A stretch of 41,714 nucleotides of DNA from an uncultured Gallionellaceae bacterium (lineage in GTDB: Bacteria > Pseudomonadota > Gammaproteobacteria > Burkholderiales > Gallionellaceae): the NCBI GenBank assembly GCA_903876625.1, contig CAIRAO010000443.1, forward strand, positions 1 through 41,714, written 5' to 3'. Each line of letters starts with the position of its first letter. The first letter of the stretch is position 1. The position numbers were made by a program, and so were the translations under genes. Below the pieces are notes generated by a model. That model did not search any database, had not been told where the DNA came from, and worked only from the letters and a program-made list of their open reading frames with translations. Below, in pieces: positions 19,443 through 29,617 of this stretch.

Positions 19443-19676
19443 ATGAATATCTCCAGATTGCTTCAAATGGCTTTTAAATGCAGGATGTTTCTATTTGTTT
19501 CTTCAGGTTTGCTTCTTATCAGTTGTGGTGGTGGCGGTTGTGGTGGTGGACAGGAAAGTTCGTCCTACTCAATTTCTGGCAACCATACCGGAGCTGCTTC
19601 CAAATCTTTTCTACAAGGGCTATATAACAACCATATAGCTTCCTTTAGAAGTCTTTCAGAAGGAGGGGCATCATGA
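19443..19676 (+). CDS. Small lipoprotein
   Basis: A 77-residue precursor with a lipoprotein signal ending LLISC; the lipidated cysteine would be Cys28. A Gly-rich stretch with one further Cys (GGGGCGGG) and a short Ser-rich tail follow. GGGAGG lies before the ATG. The stop overlaps the ATG of the next gene (ATGA), so the two are co-translated. No recognised domain; it may be a companion subunit of the 716-residue lipoprotein. Confidence 0.75.
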   Translation: MNISRLLQMAFKCRMFLFVSSGLLLISCGGGGCGGGQESSSYSISGNHTGAASKSFLQGLYNNHIASFRSLSEGGAS

Positions 19677-21823
19677 AACGTTCCCAACGTCAATATTTAT
19701 TCTTCTCAATTCAAGTTTGGTTTTTTTTCTTCCTTGCATTGATATTAGTTGGATGTAGCGGTGGGATTTCCTCTCCTGTTACAACAATGTGTTCAACATG
19801 CGCTGCAAATACCCTAACCGGACAAACGTCATCAGGCGCCATTCTTACAGGAGAAATCGTTTCTGTATATGACAGCACCGGCACCGAAGCGGTGGGCAAT
19901 GTCAACAGTGCTGGCATCTACACAATCAACGTAAAAGGATTGACTCCGCCATTCATTGTTAGAATTGAAGGTTTTGTGAATGGCAATCCGGTCGTGCTCC
20001 ACTCACCCGCACTTGCCAGCGATGTAGGTAGAAATTCAGTGAGCGTTACGCCGCTGACCGAGTTGATGTTGCTTGCATTAGGCATAGAATTCGAGGGACA
20101 AATCAAAGCGGGTACCGTCTATTACGACAGAATCAACACGGCAACTGTCATTAGCGCTGAGTCCCTAGTTAAAACCTTCGTAAAAGATGTTTTGGTGGCC
20201 GCTGGTGTTACCGGCACTGTTGACCTGCGTACCACCGAATTTACTCCAAACCATACTGGTTTGGATAAGAGTCTTGACATGCTACAGCTTGTAATTGCGT
20301 CTCCAAATTATCAAATAAGTACGATATTTTCTAACACTCCGGTAGTTGTTAATCTTTCATCTGCGTTTGCAAGTATATCTCCGTTGGTTATCCCTGCCGA
20401 TGGCACTTCAAAGGTAACAGCGGCTCTTACCGCAGCGAGCGAATTTCAAACACAGCTCGACCTTGTTTCTGCCGAATTGAAGGGCGCGGCCACAGTGGCG
20501 GCTAATTTATCCGGATTTTTTACCACTGACTTTTTTCACACTGGTCTTAATGCGAGTGACTTCATCACCACCGTCTTGAGCCAGGAAGACCCACCTAACA
20601 AAGGTGGTTTTACTCTCAAGGGTGCCAAGCTGGATTCTGTGCAGGTCAAGCGCATCATCGATGCGTCCAATATGGAAGTGAGCTTCCGTGTCGTTCCCGC
20701 ATCAGCTTACCGTCACTGGACAGAAACGATGCTGATCCAGAAGGTCACAGGCAAATGGTTGATGAAAGGCGATGGTCACTATGCCCACATTGGCGTTTTT
20801 ACACAGTCCCGTCTGAAAGAGACACCACTCATCACTGCTGAAATGCTGGCACTAAGTGATGTAACCCCTGTTGATCCTTTGGTAGTGCCGACGTATTATC
20901 AGCGCGCCATAAAGGATGCCAATGGAGCGCCGATTCTGAATAATGGATTCCCACTCAAGGAGTGGCTAGGTAGCCCAGTCGACCCATCTTGGGGATATAT
21001 TGGGTGGGTTGGTGGTGGAATTACGCTCGCTGATCGCGTGTTAGGACAACAATACAATCATATCTATAGCAAAACCAACTCTCGAGTCAGCAATTACCTC
21101 CGTCTTGAAGTTAGTAACTCGCGTGTTTCCGGCACGGTTGATCACGTCCTTGTCACAGGTGATGGTTTGCCTGTGGGAGGATTGACTTTGGTTAGGTCGC
21201 CGGCAGGTTATCCTCGCCCCTACTTTATTTACCAGGGTGATTCTTTCCACTGGGAGGCTTTCAATTCCGAACGCTGCGCTCAGGTTGACCAAGTCGTGAA
21301 TGGAGTCCATTCCGTCCCCAACTGCGCTTTGAATTGGGACGCCATCAGTTCCGGGAGTGTTTATACCTTTACCCTGTTTACTTCCAGCAATACCACACTG
21401 GAAACACTCACCAGCAAACTGGCAGTAAAACCGTATAGTGAAACGACGCTATTCACGTTGAAGAACGAATGGTTCCCTCAGTTCGACTTGCCTACAGCCT
21501 ATAGATTCAACTTCACAAATATGTTTAATGACGTAAACGGGTCGTTTATGCCAGGGAAGACATTTCCATTGGTATGGACCAACCCCACTCGTCAAGGCAA
21601 CAGCTTGGGGTGGATCAGCTTCAATACTCAAGATACTCTTAACGTTCAAGACAATCAGTCAGTTCCCTTGTATGGACTGAATATTTCTGGAACATTGCCG
21701 ACTTCACAATCCTTCATCGTGAACGGCACACTTCCGGTTACTTGGGCATGGGCCACAATTATTGGTTACGATATATTTGGAAATGAAGTTGACCATGAGG
21801 TAAGTCCAAACAATCCATATTGA
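19673..21823 (+). CDS. Large lipoprotein with carboxypeptidase-regulatory-like domain
   Basis: A 716-residue precursor. The lipobox LVGC gives Cys28, followed by SGG, consistent with an outer-membrane lipoprotein. Residues about 50-110 read as a small beta-sandwich (TSSGAILTGEIVSVYDSTG, then GIYTINVKGL) like carboxypeptidase-regulatory or CNA_B-type domains. A helical middle (about 110-270) and a long strand-rich C-terminal region follow. It overlaps the small lipoprotein gene by four bases. The function is unknown; surface display or carbohydrate binding is possible. Confidence 0.8.
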   Translation: MKRSQRQYLFFSIQVWFFFFLALILVGCSGGISSPVTTMCSTCAANTLTGQTSSGAILTGEIVSVYDSTGTEAVGNVNSAGIYTINVKGLTPPFIVRIEGFVNGNPVVLHSPALASDVGRNSVSVTPLTELMLLALGIEFEGQIKAGTVYYDRINTATVISAESLVKTFVKDVLVAAGVTGTVDLRTTEFTPNHTGLDKSLDMLQLVIASPNYQISTIFSNTPVVVNLSSAFASISPLVIPADGTSKVTAALTAASEFQTQLDLVSAELKGAATVAANLSGFFTTDFFHTGLNASDFITTVLSQEDPPNKGGFTLKGAKLDSVQVKRIIDASNMEVSFRVVPASAYRHWTETMLIQKVTGKWLMKGDGHYAHIGVFTQSRLKETPLITAEMLALSDVTPVDPLVVPTYYQRAIKDANGAPILNNGFPLKEWLGSPVDPSWGYIGWVGGGITLADRVLGQQYNHIYSKTNSRVSNYLRLEVSNSRVSGTVDHVLVTGDGLPVGGLTLVRSPAGYPRPYFIYQGDSFHWEAFNSERCAQVDQVVNGVHSVPNCALNWDAISSGSVYTFTLFTSSNTTLETLTSKLAVKPYSETTLFTLKNEWFPQFDLPTAYRFNFTNMFNDVNGSFMPGKTFPLVWTNPTRQGNSLGWISFNTQDTLNVQDNQSVPLYGLNISGTLPTSQSFIVNGTLPVTWAWATIIGYDIFGNEVDHEVSPNNPY

Positions 21824-21985: not shown

Positions 21986-22723
21986 ATGAAAAAATTCGAA
22001 TGTGTCTTTTTCTTTATTTTTCTGGTGCTTTCAGGTTGCGGAGCATTAGAACCTAAATTCTATCCGGAGAAAGAAACGATTACCTCCACTTTATTTCCTA
22101 CCGGGTATGCAGAGAAGAGTGATCCTGATTTTGAAAAGAAAGTTGAAGTATTACTTTCTGGACAAACTGTCGATATTTCTGGCCATACTGTTGTAACGAC
22201 CTCCCCTCAGTCTAATAAAAAATCACTCATTCTTGAAAAGGGAAAGTTGCTTATTATTAACAATTTGGCTGGAATCGACACAAAATTTATCGAGGAATTA
22301 AAAGAGGAAATTCATAAAAAGGACTCCGCTATCACAGAGGCGGAAAGTATAGCAGTCTCTTCATTGCCCAACTTGTCGACACTGCGCTTAATGGGCGCAC
22401 GCCAACGTGCTAAATATGTTCTGATATTTAATTCGTTTTCCAATGTTTACCGTTATCACAATGCCTGGACTATTCCAACGATTTTAGGTTTTGGTATCCC
22501 CTATTTTTTCTTGGATACTCAAACAATCAAGGTTTTTGCAAAAATTGAATATTCGCTAATCGACATTAAGGAAAATGTTATTTTGTCAAATGAATCTGTT
22601 ACAGCGGAGTCAGAGGGCAAGGCAATTTTGCCGGAGAGCGGCATCGTACAATTCAAAATGACAAATGAAGCGATTGCCGAGGGAGTGGCTCGGTTAAGTC
22701 AGAAATTTCTTCTGAAAATTTAG
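21986..22723 (+). CDS. Lipoprotein of unknown function
   Basis: A 245-residue precursor with a lipobox LSGC (Cys18) after a Phe-rich signal. AAGGAGG precedes the ATG by six bases. The mature part is mixed alpha/beta with a region YVLIFNSFSNVYRYHNAW and one hydrophobic segment (TILGFGIPYFF, about 165-175). The C-terminal third (IKVFAKIEYSLIDIKENVIL) resembles small periplasmic lipoproteins whose strands pack against a helix. No enzyme motif is seen. It is the third lipoprotein in a row on this strand. Confidence 0.75.
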   Translation: MKKFECVFFFIFLVLSGCGALEPKFYPEKETITSTLFPTGYAEKSDPDFEKKVEVLLSGQTVDISGHTVVTTSPQSNKKSLILEKGKLLIINNLAGIDTKFIEELKEEIHKKDSAITEAESIAVSSLPNLSTLRLMGARQRAKYVLIFNSFSNVYRYHNAWTIPTILGFGIPYFFLDTQTIKVFAKIEYSLIDIKENVILSNESVTAESEGKAILPESGIVQFKMTNEAIAEGVARLSQKFLLKI

Positions 22724-23711: not shown

Positions 23712-24542
23712 ATGCAATCTTTAAATTCAAGAAATATCAATTGTCATCATCAGATAGGTTCTTTTTTAGCAACTGCGTTTGTACTCGCCACGATTTCAAC
23801 TGCAACATTTGCAGCAGATCGGGTTATAGAAGAATCGCTGGTGTACAAAGATCCGACAGTTTCCCGTCAGAATCAGATGGTAAAAGGCATTTCGCTTGAC
23901 TACTACAGTTTTTCGCAAAATGTGTCATTTGCCAATGCTCCCAATCCTGACATCACAGGAACTATAGCTTATCAGCAACCTGGAATCAGCGGGTTTGTAG
24001 GTTATGGCGACATCACTTTGATGGTTTCATACAGGTCTGGCACTGGAACTGCAGACTTTAGTGCGCAATTCACTGGATTGGGCACGTTAACCTTAAATGA
24101 ATCCTTCACTCAGAGTGAATATGAGTTTGATTTGCGCTGGCTTATGACTAATTTTCAAACTACCTATTTCACACCTTATGCCTTGATCGGGTATGCGGGC
24201 ACAAAATTTAATTCAACTATCACTACGCCCTCGCTACCCTCATATAGTCAATCATCAGAGGCTACAGATACAGTGCCATTGCTCGGTATTGGTGGAATAA
24301 TACCTATAAGTGATAAGTTTGGCTTTCGTGTTGATGAGAAATTTGGTTTCGTATCGGACACTTATTCTGATTCAGCAGGAAGCGTGTCCTCCAGTTATAA
24401 CATCAGTCGATTGACTGCAACCATGTACTACAATTTTGCGGACTCATGGAACGGGCAACTTGGGGCAAGATACGAATCGAATAATACTGGAACACCCTCA
24501 ACTACAGGGTTTTACGGCATGCTAGGCTACACGTTCAGATAG
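23712..24542 (+). CDS. Small outer-membrane beta-barrel protein
   Basis: A 276-residue precursor with a signal peptide cleaved after about residue 34 (ATFAAD). The mature chain alternates polar and hydrophobic residues in strands (GYGDITLMVSYRSG, then EYEFDLRWLMTNF, then YALIGYAGTKF) and ends GMLGYTFR, with the penultimate aromatic signature of barrels. Eight to ten strands are likely. GGAG precedes the ATG. It heads the rightward group of DUF4384, caspase and SHOCT genes, so it could be the outer-membrane part of that module (inference). Confidence 0.8.
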   Translation: MQSLNSRNINCHHQIGSFLATAFVLATISTATFAADRVIEESLVYKDPTVSRQNQMVKGISLDYYSFSQNVSFANAPNPDITGTIAYQQPGISGFVGYGDITLMVSYRSGTGTADFSAQFTGLGTLTLNESFTQSEYEFDLRWLMTNFQTTYFTPYALIGYAGTKFNSTITTPSLPSYSQSSEATDTVPLLGIGGIIPISDKFGFRVDEKFGFVSDTYSDSAGSVSSSYNISRLTATMYYNFADSWNGQLGARYESNNTGTPSTTGFYGMLGYTFR

Positions 24543-24554
24543 AGGCATCAACTT

Positions 24555-24583
24555 TTATGTGGGCCGTTCAGGTTCCCATATAA
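24555..24583 (+). promoter_or_regulatory. Hairpin between the barrel gene and the LPP20/DUF4384 gene
   Basis: TTATGTGGG (24555-24563) and CCCATATAA (24575-24583) pair over nine positions with one G-U, 11-base loop. It follows the barrel stop by 12 bp and lacks a T-run, so partial termination or mRNA processing is likely. Confidence 0.45.
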
Positions 24584-24654
24584 GTGCTGAAAAAAATTGT
24601 TTTCAGAGTTTGGTTTTCTTCAACTCTTGTTCCGAATATAGAGAAAATCCTATT

Positions 24655-26055
24655 ATGTTTATTCGTCTATTTATCCTTGCATTGCTAGTCTTGCCGCTAA
24701 ACTGTCTAGCAGCCATCCTGCAAGCTGAAGCTCGTTCGACGACAGAACAACAAGCCAAACGCGAAGCACTAGCGGCGCTGGCAGACTCAATCCTGGTGAA
24801 TGTGCAATCCGAGTCATCCAGTTATCAGGAAGGGAGCGGTAAGCATAAAGAAGAATTGAAAATCACTTCACGCAGTGATATTCCTTTGATCGGTGTAGAA
24901 ACAGACATGGGTCACAAGGGCAATGATTTTATCTGCAAAGTGAGTTTGGATAGCCACAAGAGCGGCCCACTGTACGCTAAAAAAATTAGCGAGTTGCAGC
25001 AGGAAATCAGCACTCTCAATCAGCGCATCACCAAAGCACAGGGAAACGATCTTTATGCATTGCTGATCCAAGCACTAACCGTCATACAACAATATGAGAA
25101 ATATAGAGCCGTGTCCCAGTTGTTGGGAGATTTACAGATAGCCACACTACCACTTACCCGTGCTGATGTTGAATCGCAGTTGCGTGCTCTTGAAAAGGCG
25201 GCACCCTCTCTTGAATTAGCAGCTCAATTACTAACAAAGGACATGAAAACAGAAAATATTTTCATCTATCCGGCAATGCCTCATGGCTCTCATGAGGTGA
25301 CTGCGTTTGGTCGTGTCCTGAGAGATAAATTGGCCGAAAAAGTTCATACAGTTGAGACTGCAGACAAAGCGCAAAATTATTTCAAGGGGGATTACGAACT
25401 GCTTGATAACAGCATTTACGTAACCTATCGTTTGCTGGATAGCGCAGGCAACACGCTTGAAACTAGAGTGGCAACATTGGCGCCCGCAGCTTACCAAAAC
25501 GTGCAAGTCAAACCGTCAACAATGGATTTTGACAAATTACTGCATGAAGGTTTGGCAATCAGCAGTGACTTTAGAGCCCAGCTCACAACTAATCGTGGTA
25601 GCGAAGATGTATTGTTCAATGAGAGAGATGAAGTTGAGTTGTTGGTTAAATTTAATCGCACCGGATATTTTTACGTGGTGGGGTTTGTTGCAAAGAAGAC
25701 TGAAAACTACTCCTATCTTTTGGAATTATCGAATGCTGACACAGATCGGCGTTTTGTGAGATATATCAATGCCGATGATGTGAATAAATGGTTGAGCATA
25801 GGAAAATTTGAAGCAAGCTCACCATTTGGCGTTGAAAGTCTTCAACTTATTGGAAGCAGCGATGACCCTATTAATCGCCTGCCTGCGCATCAGCTAGATT
25901 CAAAAAACGATCTGTATCTCACTTCGAATAATGCAAAAAAGGGCATTACCATGACCCGTGCACTCAAGCCCAAACGAAGTGAAACTGATAAACAGTATCA
26001 GACAGAAGCAGTATTGATGTTCACCACTATGAAGAAAGTATCTGAAAAGGAATAA
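24655..26055 (+). CDS. Exported LPP20/DUF4384 protein, caspase partner
   Basis: A 466-residue precursor. ATG 24655 is chosen over GTG 24559 because a good signal peptide begins there (MFIRLFILALLVLPLNCLA). Residues about 22-100 (EARSTTEQQAKREALAALAD) resemble LPP20/FlgT-N type domains. A short coiled coil lies near 112-130. Residues about 320-400 (VELLVKFNRTGYFYVVGF, then YINADDVNKW) match DUF4384, a domain that repeatedly accompanies caspase-like proteases in bacteria. It ends one base before the caspase gene, so they form an operon. It may be a substrate, regulator or tether of the protease. Confidence 0.8.
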   Translation: MFIRLFILALLVLPLNCLAAILQAEARSTTEQQAKREALAALADSILVNVQSESSSYQEGSGKHKEELKITSRSDIPLIGVETDMGHKGNDFICKVSLDSHKSGPLYAKKISELQQEISTLNQRITKAQGNDLYALLIQALTVIQQYEKYRAVSQLLGDLQIATLPLTRADVESQLRALEKAAPSLELAAQLLTKDMKTENIFIYPAMPHGSHEVTAFGRVLRDKLAEKVHTVETADKAQNYFKGDYELLDNSIYVTYRLLDSAGNTLETRVATLAPAAYQNVQVKPSTMDFDKLLHEGLAISSDFRAQLTTNRGSEDVLFNERDEVELLVKFNRTGYFYVVGFVAKKTENYSYLLELSNADTDRRFVRYINADDVNKWLSIGKFEASSPFGVESLQLIGSSDDPINRLPAHQLDSKNDLYLTSNNAKKGITMTRALKPKRSETDKQYQTEAVLMFTTMKKVSEKE

Positions 26056-26056
26056 C

Positions 26057-27613
26057 TTGAGTATTGTCATGAAAACAAAATATTTAACGACATTTAGTTT
26101 ACTGCTATTGCTTTTCTGCTCAAGCGCTTGCGCAGGAGAAAATAAAGCATTGATTATCGGCATTAGCCAATACACTGAAATCAACAGTCTTCGTTATGCT
26201 GATTCTGACGCACAGGAATTTTCACAAATCTTGACCGATCTTGCCGGGTACAATAAATCCGATGTCTCAGTTCTACTCAATCAGGAAGCAACAAAAAAAC
26301 ACATTGTAGAAGAAATAAATAAAGTTGTTCATCTGAGCGAAAAGCATCCGCTTGATAACTTTATTTTAATGTTTGCGGGGCATGGAATTGAAAACACCTT
26401 GACTGCACACAATAAGAACAGCAAAGGTGAGGATAGAGAAACAAACATGTTTCTGGCGCCCTCGGATGCGTCTACAGACGAAAATAATTTTTATTCAACC
26501 GGTAACGGCAAAGAAGTTTCAAATGAAACATTCATCAATAAGGCGTGGCTCGCCAGGCAATTGTCCGCAATTCAGGCAAAGTCCATTTTTATTATTCTTG
26601 ACTCATGCTACAGCGGCACAAAATCTTTTGGAACACTTTTTCTTGAAAACGAGGGATATTCAATTCAAAGCTTCAGTGCAAAAGGCTCCAACAGGGGCGT
26701 TGCAGATGTCAAAAGAAAACGGGCATTGAAATTAAAGCAGTCCGCAGAGGATGCCCAATTAACACCGGTCAAGTATGTAGAAAACAGAAAGATTGCCTAT
26801 CTGGCATCGAGTCGTGATGATCAGGCTTCTGCTGAATATGAGGAACTTCAGCATGGAGCTTTAAGTTATTGCATCTTTGAATATATCAAAAGAACTCGAA
26901 GAGAAGTAAGTAAAGGTGATAAGAAAAACATTTCTATAGAAGACGTATACACAAATATCACTAAACTCTTCCATGAAACGAATATTAAAGGAGTTTCCCT
27001 CGACGTGGCGCACCAGCCTCTACTCATGCCCATTCCCGATTTTGCAGACATGAAGGATATGGTATTGATCAGCGTTTCCGGGACTAAAGAAAAAGTAGCA
27101 AACTCGGAGAATGTTAGAAAAGGCATTTTGAAAATTACTTCACGAGACCCTTCCGTAAATGATATTGAAATTTACATAGATGGAACAAAAAGTAACGAGC
27201 AAATTAACAAAGCAATGAAATTGCCTGAAGGTCGCCATTCTGTTGAACTATACGCGCACAAAACCGGTTACAGATATACATTTACTGCAGACATTTCTCC
27301 GGGTAATCCAGTATCACAAGCGGTCAAGTTACAGGGAGAGCTCTTTATTTCATCATTTTGGTTAAAGGATGGAATCAAATCCGAAGGACCGCAACTCGAA
27401 GTAAGTATCGATGGAAATAAAGTGGGTAAATCTAAATTACATCTAGAAAATTTAATGGTTGGGTCACATTTGATCGAAGTTAAATTTCAGGATGTGATTA
27501 AATCAAGACAAGTTGAAATTAGACCGGATTCTCCACTTCGTATAAATTATTCAATTGTAAGAGAAGGTGCTCCGCCACCCGATGAAAAAAAAGTTAGAAA
27601 CGTTATGTTCTGA
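26057..27613 (+). CDS. Secreted caspase-like protease (peptidase C14)
   Basis: A 518-residue precursor with a signal peptide (LLLLLFCSSACAGE). The caspase fold starts at NKALIIGISQY. The catalytic His109 is in FAGHG and Cys184 in LDSCYSG, both intact. TTG 26057 is taken as start because AAGGA lies five bases before it; ATG 26069 lacks a site. Residues from about 345 carry two PEGA-like small beta domains (GILKITSRDPSVNDIEIYID, then LEVSIDGNKVGKSKL). The enzyme should cut proteins after basic or acidic residues outside the cytoplasm, which is unusual for a death-type protease and suggests envelope signalling. Confidence 0.92.
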   Translation: MSIVMKTKYLTTFSLLLLLFCSSACAGENKALIIGISQYTEINSLRYADSDAQEFSQILTDLAGYNKSDVSVLLNQEATKKHIVEEINKVVHLSEKHPLDNFILMFAGHGIENTLTAHNKNSKGEDRETNMFLAPSDASTDENNFYSTGNGKEVSNETFINKAWLARQLSAIQAKSIFIILDSCYSGTKSFGTLFLENEGYSIQSFSAKGSNRGVADVKRKRALKLKQSAEDAQLTPVKYVENRKIAYLASSRDDQASAEYEELQHGALSYCIFEYIKRTRREVSKGDKKNISIEDVYTNITKLFHETNIKGVSLDVAHQPLLMPIPDFADMKDMVLISVSGTKEKVANSENVRKGILKITSRDPSVNDIEIYIDGTKSNEQINKAMKLPEGRHSVELYAHKTGYRYTFTADISPGNPVSQAVKLQGELFISSFWLKDGIKSEGPQLEVSIDGNKVGKSKLHLENLMVGSHLIEVKFQDVIKSRQVEIRPDSPLRINYSIVREGAPPPDEKKVRNVMF

Positions 27614-27646
27614 TGCTGTAGCCATCAAAACCACAAGGAAATCATC

Positions 27647-27868
27647 ATGTCATTTTTTAATAAACTCTATAAATTCATTTTTCGTAAAAAAGTTCAAAAA
27701 GAGTACGATGCTTTATTAGTTGAAAAAAATAAGATTGAAGCCGAACTTGCCAAACTAAAAGAGAATACCTCTAATCAGTTGAACGAATTAGATTCGATGC
27801 TCGAGCAGGGCCTAATAAATGATAGCGAGTATGCGGCCAAGAAAAATTCAATACTATCTTTGCCTTGA
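27647..27868 (+). CDS. Small coiled-coil protein with SHOCT-type C-terminus
   Basis: A 73-residue protein. A basic amphipathic N-terminus (MSFFNKLYKFIFRKKVQKE) could touch the membrane, a short coiled coil follows (EKNKIEAELAKLKEN), and the end (LNELDSMLEQGLINDSEYAAKK) fits the SHOCT oligomerisation motif. AAGGAAATC precedes the ATG. It lies 33 bases after the caspase gene and is probably part of that operon. A function in oligomerisation or membrane tethering is inferred. Confidence 0.75.
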   Translation: MSFFNKLYKFIFRKKVQKEYDALLVEKNKIEAELAKLKENTSNQLNELDSMLEQGLINDSEYAAKKNSILSLP

Positions 27869-27907
27869 ATTTTAGAGCATGACTTCCCACCTTGCACGGA
27901 GAAATTG

Positions 27908-29617
27908 TTGATAAAAAATATCGGACGTTATGAAATCGTGGGCGAGCTTGGGCGCGGCTCCATGGGAATCGTCTACAAGGCACGCGATCCGTTGATCGGC
28001 CGCTTTGTCGCGGTCAAGGTCCCTGATCTTTCGGGCTTGTCCATCAAGGAGATCGAGGAATATGAATCCCGCTTCTATTTGGAAGCGCAGGCAGCGGGGA
28101 GCTTGAACCATAACCATATCTTTACCATCTTCGATATGGGGAAAAGTGACGATGCGGCTTTCATCGCCATGGAAATCCTGCAAGGCCGCGAGTTGCGCGA
28201 ACTTATCAGCGAGAAGGGGATGGCGATCGAGGATGTGCTGAATATTTCGATTCAGGTGTCCAACGCGTTAGGCTACGCGCACCAGCACGGTGTCGTGCAC
28301 CGTGACGTCAAGCCTGAAAATATCATGGTATTGGATAATATGCTGGTGAAAATTGCCGACTTCGGTATCGCGAAGGTACCTGACACCGGAGTGAAAACAA
28401 ACATCAACAGGGTCTTGGGTTCACCGTCGTTCATGTCGCCGGAACAGATACAGTTCAAACCGACCGATGCTCGCTCCGACATTTTCTCGTTCGGCGTGGT
28501 GATGTATCAAATGCTCACCGGGAAGCTTCCATTCATGGGCGCCAATATTATGGAGCTGATGAACCAAATTGTTGGAAGCACTCCTCCGCTGCCAAGTTCA
28601 TTGAATTCAAAAGTATCGGACATGTTGGATTCCATTGTCTTGAAATGCATTGCAAAAAATCCCACCGCGCGCTACCAGACCGCGTATGAGTTGGAAGATG
28701 CTCTGCGCGCGTGCTTGGAGATGGTGCGGGGCATAAGCGAAAGCCACAGGGTCTTCCATAACAATAGTCAATTCAGGCTGTTCAAGTTGCTCACTACTCC
28801 CGGTGGCATTCCGCAGCATATAGCGTTACTTTCCAGCGTCATCGCCATGCTGGCGATCTTTGTTCTGGATCTTTTGACCGACGACAGTATACAAGTACAC
28901 ATGTTGTATATTGTCCCGCTCATCGTGGCGAGTTTTCATTGCGAGAAGTTGCTCTATGTCAGATTTTCCGTGGCGCTCGCCATTATGTTGCAGGGAATAG
29001 CGCTCGTGTTTTTCAGCAATGCAATTCCTATCCAGTCAAAGATCATTCTCGCATGCATGGTTTTGCCATTGAACATTGTCATCTCACTTGTCGCTGTCAT
29101 CGCGCGCATCAATTTCTTGGAAGTTGAACAGCTTGCCACGTTCGACTGGCTCACCGGCCTTTACAACCGTAAAGGCTTTGAGCCGCTGGTGGAAATGGAA
29201 ATCCGCCGGCAAAGACGCTACGGGGGAGAATTCTCATTCGCTTACGTAGACCTCGACAATTTTAAGAAACTGAACAGCACGCAAGGGCAACAAACTGGCA
29301 ACGTGACGCTGAAACTGCTTGCCAAAATCATGCGTGAACAGATTCGCCAAACGGATACAATCGGTAGATTGGACGGAGATGAATTCGCCGTATTGATGCC
29401 GAATACTTCCGAAAATGACAGTCAGGAAGTCTACAATAAACTTAGTGCCACAATTACCGAGCAGATGGATAAGGCCGGCTTTCACGTCTCGGCAAGCATC
29501 GGCTATGTAACTTTTACGAAGGCACCTGATTCGGTTTCCGAAGTATTTGAAACGGCCAATAATGCAATGTTGGCAGCCAAATCATCTGGCAAAGGGACGG
29601 TGGCTAAAGGCGGATGA
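27908..29617 (+). CDS. Ser/Thr protein kinase fused to membrane region and GGDEF domain
   Basis: A 569-residue protein. Residues about 8-270 form a PknB-type kinase: GRGSMG loop, Lys37 (AVK), HRDVKPEN with the catalytic Asp133, and ADFGIAK. About 304-400 holds four hydrophobic segments. About 405-565 is a diguanylate cyclase domain with RLDGDEF; the first Gly of the usual GGDEF is Asp here, and the RxxD inhibitory site is not obvious. TTG 27908 is chosen because GGAG lies six bases before it, while TTG 27905 would be too close. A kinase and a GGDEF domain in one chain should link phosphorylation to cyclic-di-GMP. It is more GC-rich than the caspase genes upstream. Confidence 0.9.
   Translation: MIKNIGRYEIVGELGRGSMGIVYKARDPLIGRFVAVKVPDLSGLSIKEIEEYESRFYLEAQAAGSLNHNHIFTIFDMGKSDDAAFIAMEILQGRELRELISEKGMAIEDVLNISIQVSNALGYAHQHGVVHRDVKPENIMVLDNMLVKIADFGIAKVPDTGVKTNINRVLGSPSFMSPEQIQFKPTDARSDIFSFGVVMYQMLTGKLPFMGANIMELMNQIVGSTPPLPSSLNSKVSDMLDSIVLKCIAKNPTARYQTAYELEDALRACLEMVRGISESHRVFHNNSQFRLFKLLTTPGGIPQHIALLSSVIAMLAIFVLDLLTDDSIQVHMLYIVPLIVASFHCEKLLYVRFSVALAIMLQGIALVFFSNAIPIQSKIILACMVLPLNIVISLVAVIARINFLEVEQLATFDWLTGLYNRKGFEPLVEMEIRRQRRYGGEFSFAYVDLDNFKKLNSTQGQQTGNVTLKLLAKIMREQIRQTDTIGRLDGDEFAVLMPNTSENDSQEVYNKLSATITEQMDKAGFHVSASIGYVTFTKAPDSVSEVFETANNAMLAAKSSGKGTVAKGG

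Follow-up and report, generated by a model that had tools for sequence, protein, structure and literature searches.

Most discussion of bacterial caspases treats them as cytoplasmic effectors of cell death or defence. We analyzed a caspase with a predicted export signal and its neighbouring genes in a stretch of 41,714 nucleotides from an uncultured Gallionellaceae bacterium related to iron oxidisers (assembly GCA_903876625.1, contig CAIRAO010000443.1, positions 1 to 41,714), hereafter the window. Its contig, C443, comes from a 3.9-Mb assembly of 492 contigs (completeness 99.89, contamination 5.57), and one caspase was detected in this genome. A preliminary description of the window had joined five genes, from an outer-membrane beta-barrel to a kinase-GGDEF protein, in one envelope system tied to cyclic di-GMP. 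Of that interpretation, the exported module of caspase, barrel and partner protein was borne out, and the part concerning cyclic di-GMP was not. The unit is smaller than proposed and consists of the barrel, a partner protein with LPP20-like and DUF4384-like parts, and the caspase, at positions 23712-27613.

The caspase resembles the prokaryotic metacaspases or orthocaspases (Peptidase_C14) in its catalytic His-Cys dyad, its acidic pocket pair and its Pfam membership. It differs from them in belonging to a long-stemmed subclade of three (stem 1.69, support 100/100) whose members share conserved insertions and end in PEGA. Among single-domain metacaspases, N-terminal helices that are possible signal peptides were described in 46 of 398, and OmpA domains were described in 14 metacaspase operons (PMC3501461). 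The occurrence of DUF4384 in one clade of caspase homologues and its co-occurrence with kinases have been mentioned (PMC6426788). The pairing of caspases with DUF4384, named as known in the preliminary description, is indeed established, and of 29 DUF4384 matches in 158 genomes of the family, 25 were fused to a caspase or had one no more than 3 kb away. The locus shares this link, here through the neighbouring gene; in relatives such as genome G001, contig C380, the two are fused. Two things set it apart from the known caspase-DUF4384 proteins: its DUF4384-like domain is divergent and shares a separate, exported protein with an LPP20-like domain, and this same protein goes with caspases of several architectures. 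A constant partner with a variable caspase is also the plan of the two-gene EACC1-caspase system (PMC7159879), in contrast to which the partner here is the exported LPP20-DUF4384 protein. Judged on the caspase model, an EACC1-type caspase was rejected (NF047832, 55.2 bits against a cut-off of 140). Since exported caspases, like pairs of a caspase with DUF4384, are frequent in the family, the locus is of a known general kind. Neither the arrangement with a constant partner nor the pairing with a barrel was met in an open-access literature search, in which LPP20 and DUF4384 were not searched as a pair.

All open reading frames (ORFs) named in the preliminary description exist where it had placed them, on the forward strand and with short gaps. 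Three of them make up the unit:

23712..24542, + strand: predicted outer-membrane beta-barrel, exported (signal-peptide test, AlphaFold model, fold matches, recurrence in genomes G007 and G003)
24655..26055, + strand: partner protein of 466 residues, LPP20-like in its N-terminal and DUF4384-like in its C-terminal part, exported (family-level profiles, signal peptide)
26057 (TTG) or 26069 (ATG)..27613, + strand: Peptidase_C14 caspase with a C-terminal PEGA domain, exported (Pfam, orthologues, signal peptide)

The barrel and partner genes are separated by 112 bp, counted to the partner ATG at 24655. The gap between partner and caspase is 1 bp from the TTG at 26057 or 13 bp from the ATG at 26069. 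Hallmarks of insertion were looked for in the window, with the result that neither a tRNA nor convincing flanking repeats were found.

The proposal that these three genes form a module is supported by their recurrent proximity in a neighbourhood search. Of 158 family genomes, 6 contained the partner, at seven loci in all, and five other genomes among 399 of the order contributed six more loci. The stretches used to compare these loci were 3.7 to 20 kb long. A caspase was located within 3.1 kb of the partner at 11 of the 13 loci (10 of 12 if the window is left aside) and within 1.6 kb at 10 of 13, and both genes were on one strand in 10 of the 11 paired loci. Outside the family, proximity was seen at 5 of 6 loci. 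Partner loci without a nearby caspase were G003:C85, for which just 3.7 kb was compared, and G468:C2. The associated caspases vary in architecture, with PEGA in the window, WD40 in G005 and G283, and FGE-sulfatase in G404 and G185; the partner is constant and the caspases are variable. We also mapped the partner as a label onto a tree built from 117 caspase domains, which had passed an E-value and length filter that may favour intact domains. The label (10 rows) required at least 7 changes compared with 9.8 in shuffles, and 1 of 500 shuffles was as low. Thus the label is somewhat clustered, yet repeatedly gained or lost. It was given to domains within 3.3 kb of the partner, and G166:C14 and G185:C12 are unlabelled though they count among the 11 of 13 loci.

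Of 40 other relatives, two had a close orthologue of the caspase, G007 (76% identity) and G003 (66%), and a scan of the genome collection led to the same two contigs. Among 399 genomes of the order only partial caspase matches were obtained, the best outside the window at E 3e-10. The barrel gene lies upstream of the caspase in all three known loci. In G007 and G003 it directly adjoins the caspase, with gaps of 51 and 76 bp, and in the window the partner stands in between; the flanks of both loci are unlike those of the window. A barrel gene was detected in five of the 158 genomes of the family; among 200 genomes of the order there was one, the window's own.

Other genes recur around caspases as well. 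An LPP20-lipoprotein profile matched 6 of the 13 partner loci, and FecR proteins (Pfam) were present at three. A FecR protein gene also follows the caspase-DUF4384 fusion of G001:C380 (L081:110-2957), and FecR proteins were seen near caspase or partner genes in L080, L237 and G005:C9. In G102:C9 (L160), G105:C5 (L124, L125) and G166:C30 (L167), four or five caspase genes are arrayed over about 14-21 kb, and the arrays of G102:C9 and G105:C5 also contain several DUF4384 domains.

Signal peptides were judged by a strict home-made test. All seven partner proteins tested and all three caspase orthologues tested carried a signal peptide, and the window barrel passed as well. The export signal of the partner, as described before, was confirmed by this test; its LPP20 and DUF4384 character held at the family level, and the window protein's own DUF4384 score stayed under the cut-off. 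Its ORF opens at a GTG at 24559, and its homologues begin at the ATG at 24655. The window protein had no usable Pfam match of its own. LPP20 scored above the cut-off in the homologues G002:C33 and G005:C9, with none listed for the window protein, and the LPP20 protein 4kzs in the Protein Data Bank (PDB) was matched by the partner family at E 0.001. At a threshold of E<=1, all 11 sequences aligned in the C-terminal part matched DUF4384 (best 5.9e-10), and profile-profile comparison of the partner family gave a probability of 95.4. The window protein itself reached E 0.06 and 13.9 bits, under the cut-off of 27. It was matched with an independent E-value of 5e-5 by a DUF4384 profile into which weak hits from close homologues had been taken, and a stricter family-built profile without those hits did not reach it. 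Since only the family-level evidence clears, we call the protein DUF4384-like.

The caspase matched Peptidase_C14 at 65.9 bits (cut-off 21.4, E 5.7e-18) and PEGA above its cut-off (E 2.7e-6); PEGA domains have been termed peptidoglycan-associating (PMC7159879). The catalytic residues His109 and Cys184, numbered from the TTG start, are intact as had been reported, in the motifs AGHG and DSCYSG. Across the 117 domains the His is present in 116 and the Cys in 117. An acidic S1 pair, Asp47 and Asp178 (ATG numbering), is present in the caspase and conserved in 116/117 and 115/117 domains, respectively. The pair aligns with Metacaspase-1, and the metacaspase residues at these positions were described as accommodating basic residues (PMC6426788, PMC4357240). 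As the acidic pair is retained, a specificity for cleavage after Arg or Lys is predicted. In the predicted p20-p10 linker, K-R-A-L is invariant in the three orthologues within variable surroundings and is a plausible site of self-cleavage. The nearest solved chain to the subclade profile was a yeast-type Metacaspase-1 (E 6e-5); a broader caspase profile also matched the bacterial GSU0716 (3bij, E 2.5e-14). Carriage by phages or plasmids was rejected: the caspase had no match in a phage collection, none of 52 pattern matches was confirmed in a scan of viral contigs, and nine plasmid records matched it only in part (24-34% identity), with no plasmid match for the partner. A PHROGs search yielded nothing useful.

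For the barrel, no Pfam match was obtained, a single NCBIfam match was far under its cut-off, and its profile returned nothing credible from PDB sequences. An AlphaFold model based on three sequences predicts ten strands over residues 53-275 (predicted local distance difference test, pLDDT, 71.7; predicted template modelling score 0.66). The best fold matches of this model were omptins, Legionella porin I and OpcA. The predicted barrel has ten strands like the omptins OmpT and Pla (E 1e-10 to 9e-8 by Foldseek, Z about 19-20 by VIA), and it is set apart from them by an identity of 10-14%, its lack of a Pfam match and the absence of histidine from the mature protein. The active site of omptins requires a catalytic His. 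The only histidines of the window barrel, residues 12 and 13, are both in the leader, and none is conserved in the two orthologues. Because the mature sequence has no histidine, the barrel is not an omptin protease. The segment preceding strand 1 is well conserved across the three sequences, with Y-x-D-P-T present in 5 of 5. Two barrel homologues (L091:7824-9107 and L092:8105-9469) carry a proline/lysine-rich spacer ahead of the barrel, with no caspase in the fetched stretch. Helix-turn-helix genes, one above the Pfam cut-off and one under it, stand divergently and directly upstream of the barrel in both relatives (L075:3158-3484 and L076:3316-3717); no such ORF was noticed in the window.

Two further genes of the preliminary description follow the caspase:

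27647..27868, + strand: SHOCT protein of 73 residues without signal peptide, doubtful member (Pfam SHOCT)
27905..29617, + strand: Ser/Thr kinase - transmembrane - GGDEF protein, neighbour, probably outside the module (Pfam, orthologue loci, GC3)

The SHOCT gene begins 33 bp behind the caspase. Its SHOCT-type domain is real by score (28.9 bits, cut-off 27), the strict signal-peptide test was negative, and its membership in the module found no support, as tblastn at E<=1 gave no match in 239 other fetched loci. The searches for SHOCT and for flanking genes were run with positive controls. The kinase-GGDEF gene was said to follow at 39 bp, and the gap is 36 or 39 bp by the choice of TTG. Its kinase (1.8e-51) and GGDEF (6.9e-34) domains are clear in Pfam. 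The strict test for a signal peptide was negative and hydrophobic segments occur only between the two domains, so that both are most likely cytoplasmic, judging from the protein sequence. The GC content of third codon positions (GC3) is 0.386 in the barrel gene, 0.420 in the partner, 0.348 in the caspase, 0.338 in the SHOCT gene and 0.618 in the kinase-GGDEF gene. It was 0.43-0.56 in 15 of 16 other window genes measured, and 0.374 in the remaining one (21986-22723). The protein of that gene (245 residues) and the one at 19673-21823 (716 residues) have lipoprotein-like leaders by eye and no Pfam match; the only NCBIfam match of the former was sub-threshold and confined to the leader.

Taken as a whole, the computed gene order and its recurrence, the export signals of our simple test, the barrel fold and the intact catalytic and pocket residues are best explained by a small protease module of the cell envelope at 23712-27613 that probably moves horizontally and would act by regulated proteolysis; we put its probability at about 0.5. 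The barrel would sit in the outer membrane and the LPP20-DUF4384 protein and the caspase in the periplasm, where PEGA would keep the caspase near the envelope. The caspase would be exported as a zymogen and mature by a cut after Lys or Arg in the p20-p10 linker. The mature enzyme would then cleave envelope proteins after Arg or Lys under the control of the LPP20-DUF4384 protein, which may be its constant regulator or scaffold. The barrel may be the module's own client, as a surface sensor or as a substrate. Horizontal transfer, zymogen activation, the direction of regulation, the role of the barrel and the trigger are what we infer here. In a more far-reaching version, exported caspases of the PEGA, WD40 and FGE-sulfatase types would be interchangeable, with the LPP20-DUF4384 protein as their constant regulator in the periplasm. 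One lineage would have added the dedicated ten-stranded barrel, to sense at the surface or to serve as substrate, and the outcome would be a protease switch across the envelope. This version is tentative, and the odds are against it.

Several observations weigh against the module as we read it. Known orthologues of the caspase number only three, all in fragmented genomes, the window's own with 5.57% contamination. Gene order varies: the G007 partner is downstream of the caspase, and the G003 partner is on a separate contig between lon- and pntA-like genes (named by eye). No caspase lay in the 16-18 kb fetched for the barrel homologues of G152 and G169, and the strict signal-peptide test was negative for the G007 and G003 barrels. 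With 112 bp between barrel and partner, a single transcript is only a possibility. Low GC3 is not exclusive to the module, being shared by the lipoprotein gene at 21986-22723, and in G007 the caspase (0.547) and the partner (0.645) do not have it. The p20-p10 assignment and the linker site are predictions from sequence, and the predicted structure of the caspase (pLDDT 43) was too poor to be used.

Other explanations account for parts of these data. Gingipain is a secreted protease, and like it or clostripain the caspase could be a processing enzyme that matures its own barrel or surface proteins, a housekeeping task with no role in sensing or death. The precedent is that of a clan-CD relative for which an Arg pocket has been described (PMC4357240). 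The barrel is also the most faithful neighbour of the caspase (3 of 3), and a two-partner-secretion (TPS) domain is present in two long caspases from this family, which probably act outside the cell. However, partner and caspase occur at loci without a detected barrel and barrels occur without caspases, and the patchy distribution speaks against housekeeping; we consider this explanation unlikely. The patchy distribution, with the AT-rich composition, would fit a defence or cell-death module in which barrel and partner sense phage adsorption or envelope damage and the activated caspase brings about killing or lysis. Bacterial conflict systems make use of caspases, and one of them, EACC1, combines a constant membrane partner with variable caspases (PMC7159879). 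The caspase matched a generic caspase model of PADLOC (E 3.9e-13), and the kinase matched many PD-T4-6 models through its kinase domain (best E 1.1e-85). In contrast, the barrel and the partner had no match among the five window proteins scanned with PADLOC, and the phage collection and viral contigs searched lack the caspase. In addition, the known caspase effectors act, to our knowledge, in the cytoplasm. A defence role is rather doubtful.

A horizontally acquired set that drifts as cargo without a maintained function in its host would explain the patchy distribution and the rearranged versions in relatives. Against this, all frames are intact, the catalytic and pocket residues are kept, and the G007 caspase has 76% identity with a strongly conserved catalytic domain, which leaves such a reading improbable. 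The preliminary description had instead combined the caspase genes and the kinase-GGDEF receptor in one pathway from periplasmic proteolysis to cyclic di-GMP. The two are adjacent on one strand at 36-39 bp, and no terminator-like site was found on the + strand from 23712 to 27905, in a promoter and terminator scan that yielded no more sites than shuffles. Some kinase or GGDEF match is present in each of the 158 family genomes, and with the best 8 candidates scored per genome, full-length orthologues (49-74% identity) were found in at least 8 others. In the 8 genomes with listed full-length orthologues neither barrel nor partner was found. When 11 window proteins were searched in the 8 fetched stretches, the kinase itself was the only match, the 10 others having none. 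Two of these genomes, G001 and G116, contain unrelated caspases on other contigs. The GC3 of 0.618 also differs from the 0.338-0.420 of the genes upstream. Membership of the kinase-GGDEF gene was rejected on these grounds, and it is probably a neighbour and not part of the module. As its membership is unsupported, the link to cyclic di-GMP is reduced to adjacency in one genome, and a cascade of this kind is very improbable.

The envelope module is one case of export within a larger set of caspases. The family set comprised 98 caspases, 96 from the survey and two added (the window's and G007:C123), and at least 42 of 158 genomes had a caspase. The strict signal-peptide test was passed by 58 of 96 testable caspases (39/65 N-terminal and 19/31 C-terminal; two at contig ends were set aside) compared with 92 of 431 control ORFs, which are a mixture of truly exported and spurious ORFs. 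It replaced a looser first test, which had given 66/98 and 195/431. Very long proteins with an N-terminal TPS domain (by Pfam) and a C-terminal caspase were observed at L142:1122-6683 (G099:C50) and L149:5928-11390 (G059:C85), and these would be secreted across the outer membrane. The N-termini of proteins in G104:C29 and G075:C82 resemble them, as a likeness only. Given the 58/96 signal peptides and the long TPS-bearing caspases, much of the caspase repertoire of the family may work outside the cytoplasm. The constant partner of differing caspases is a concrete candidate for how such exported caspases are controlled.

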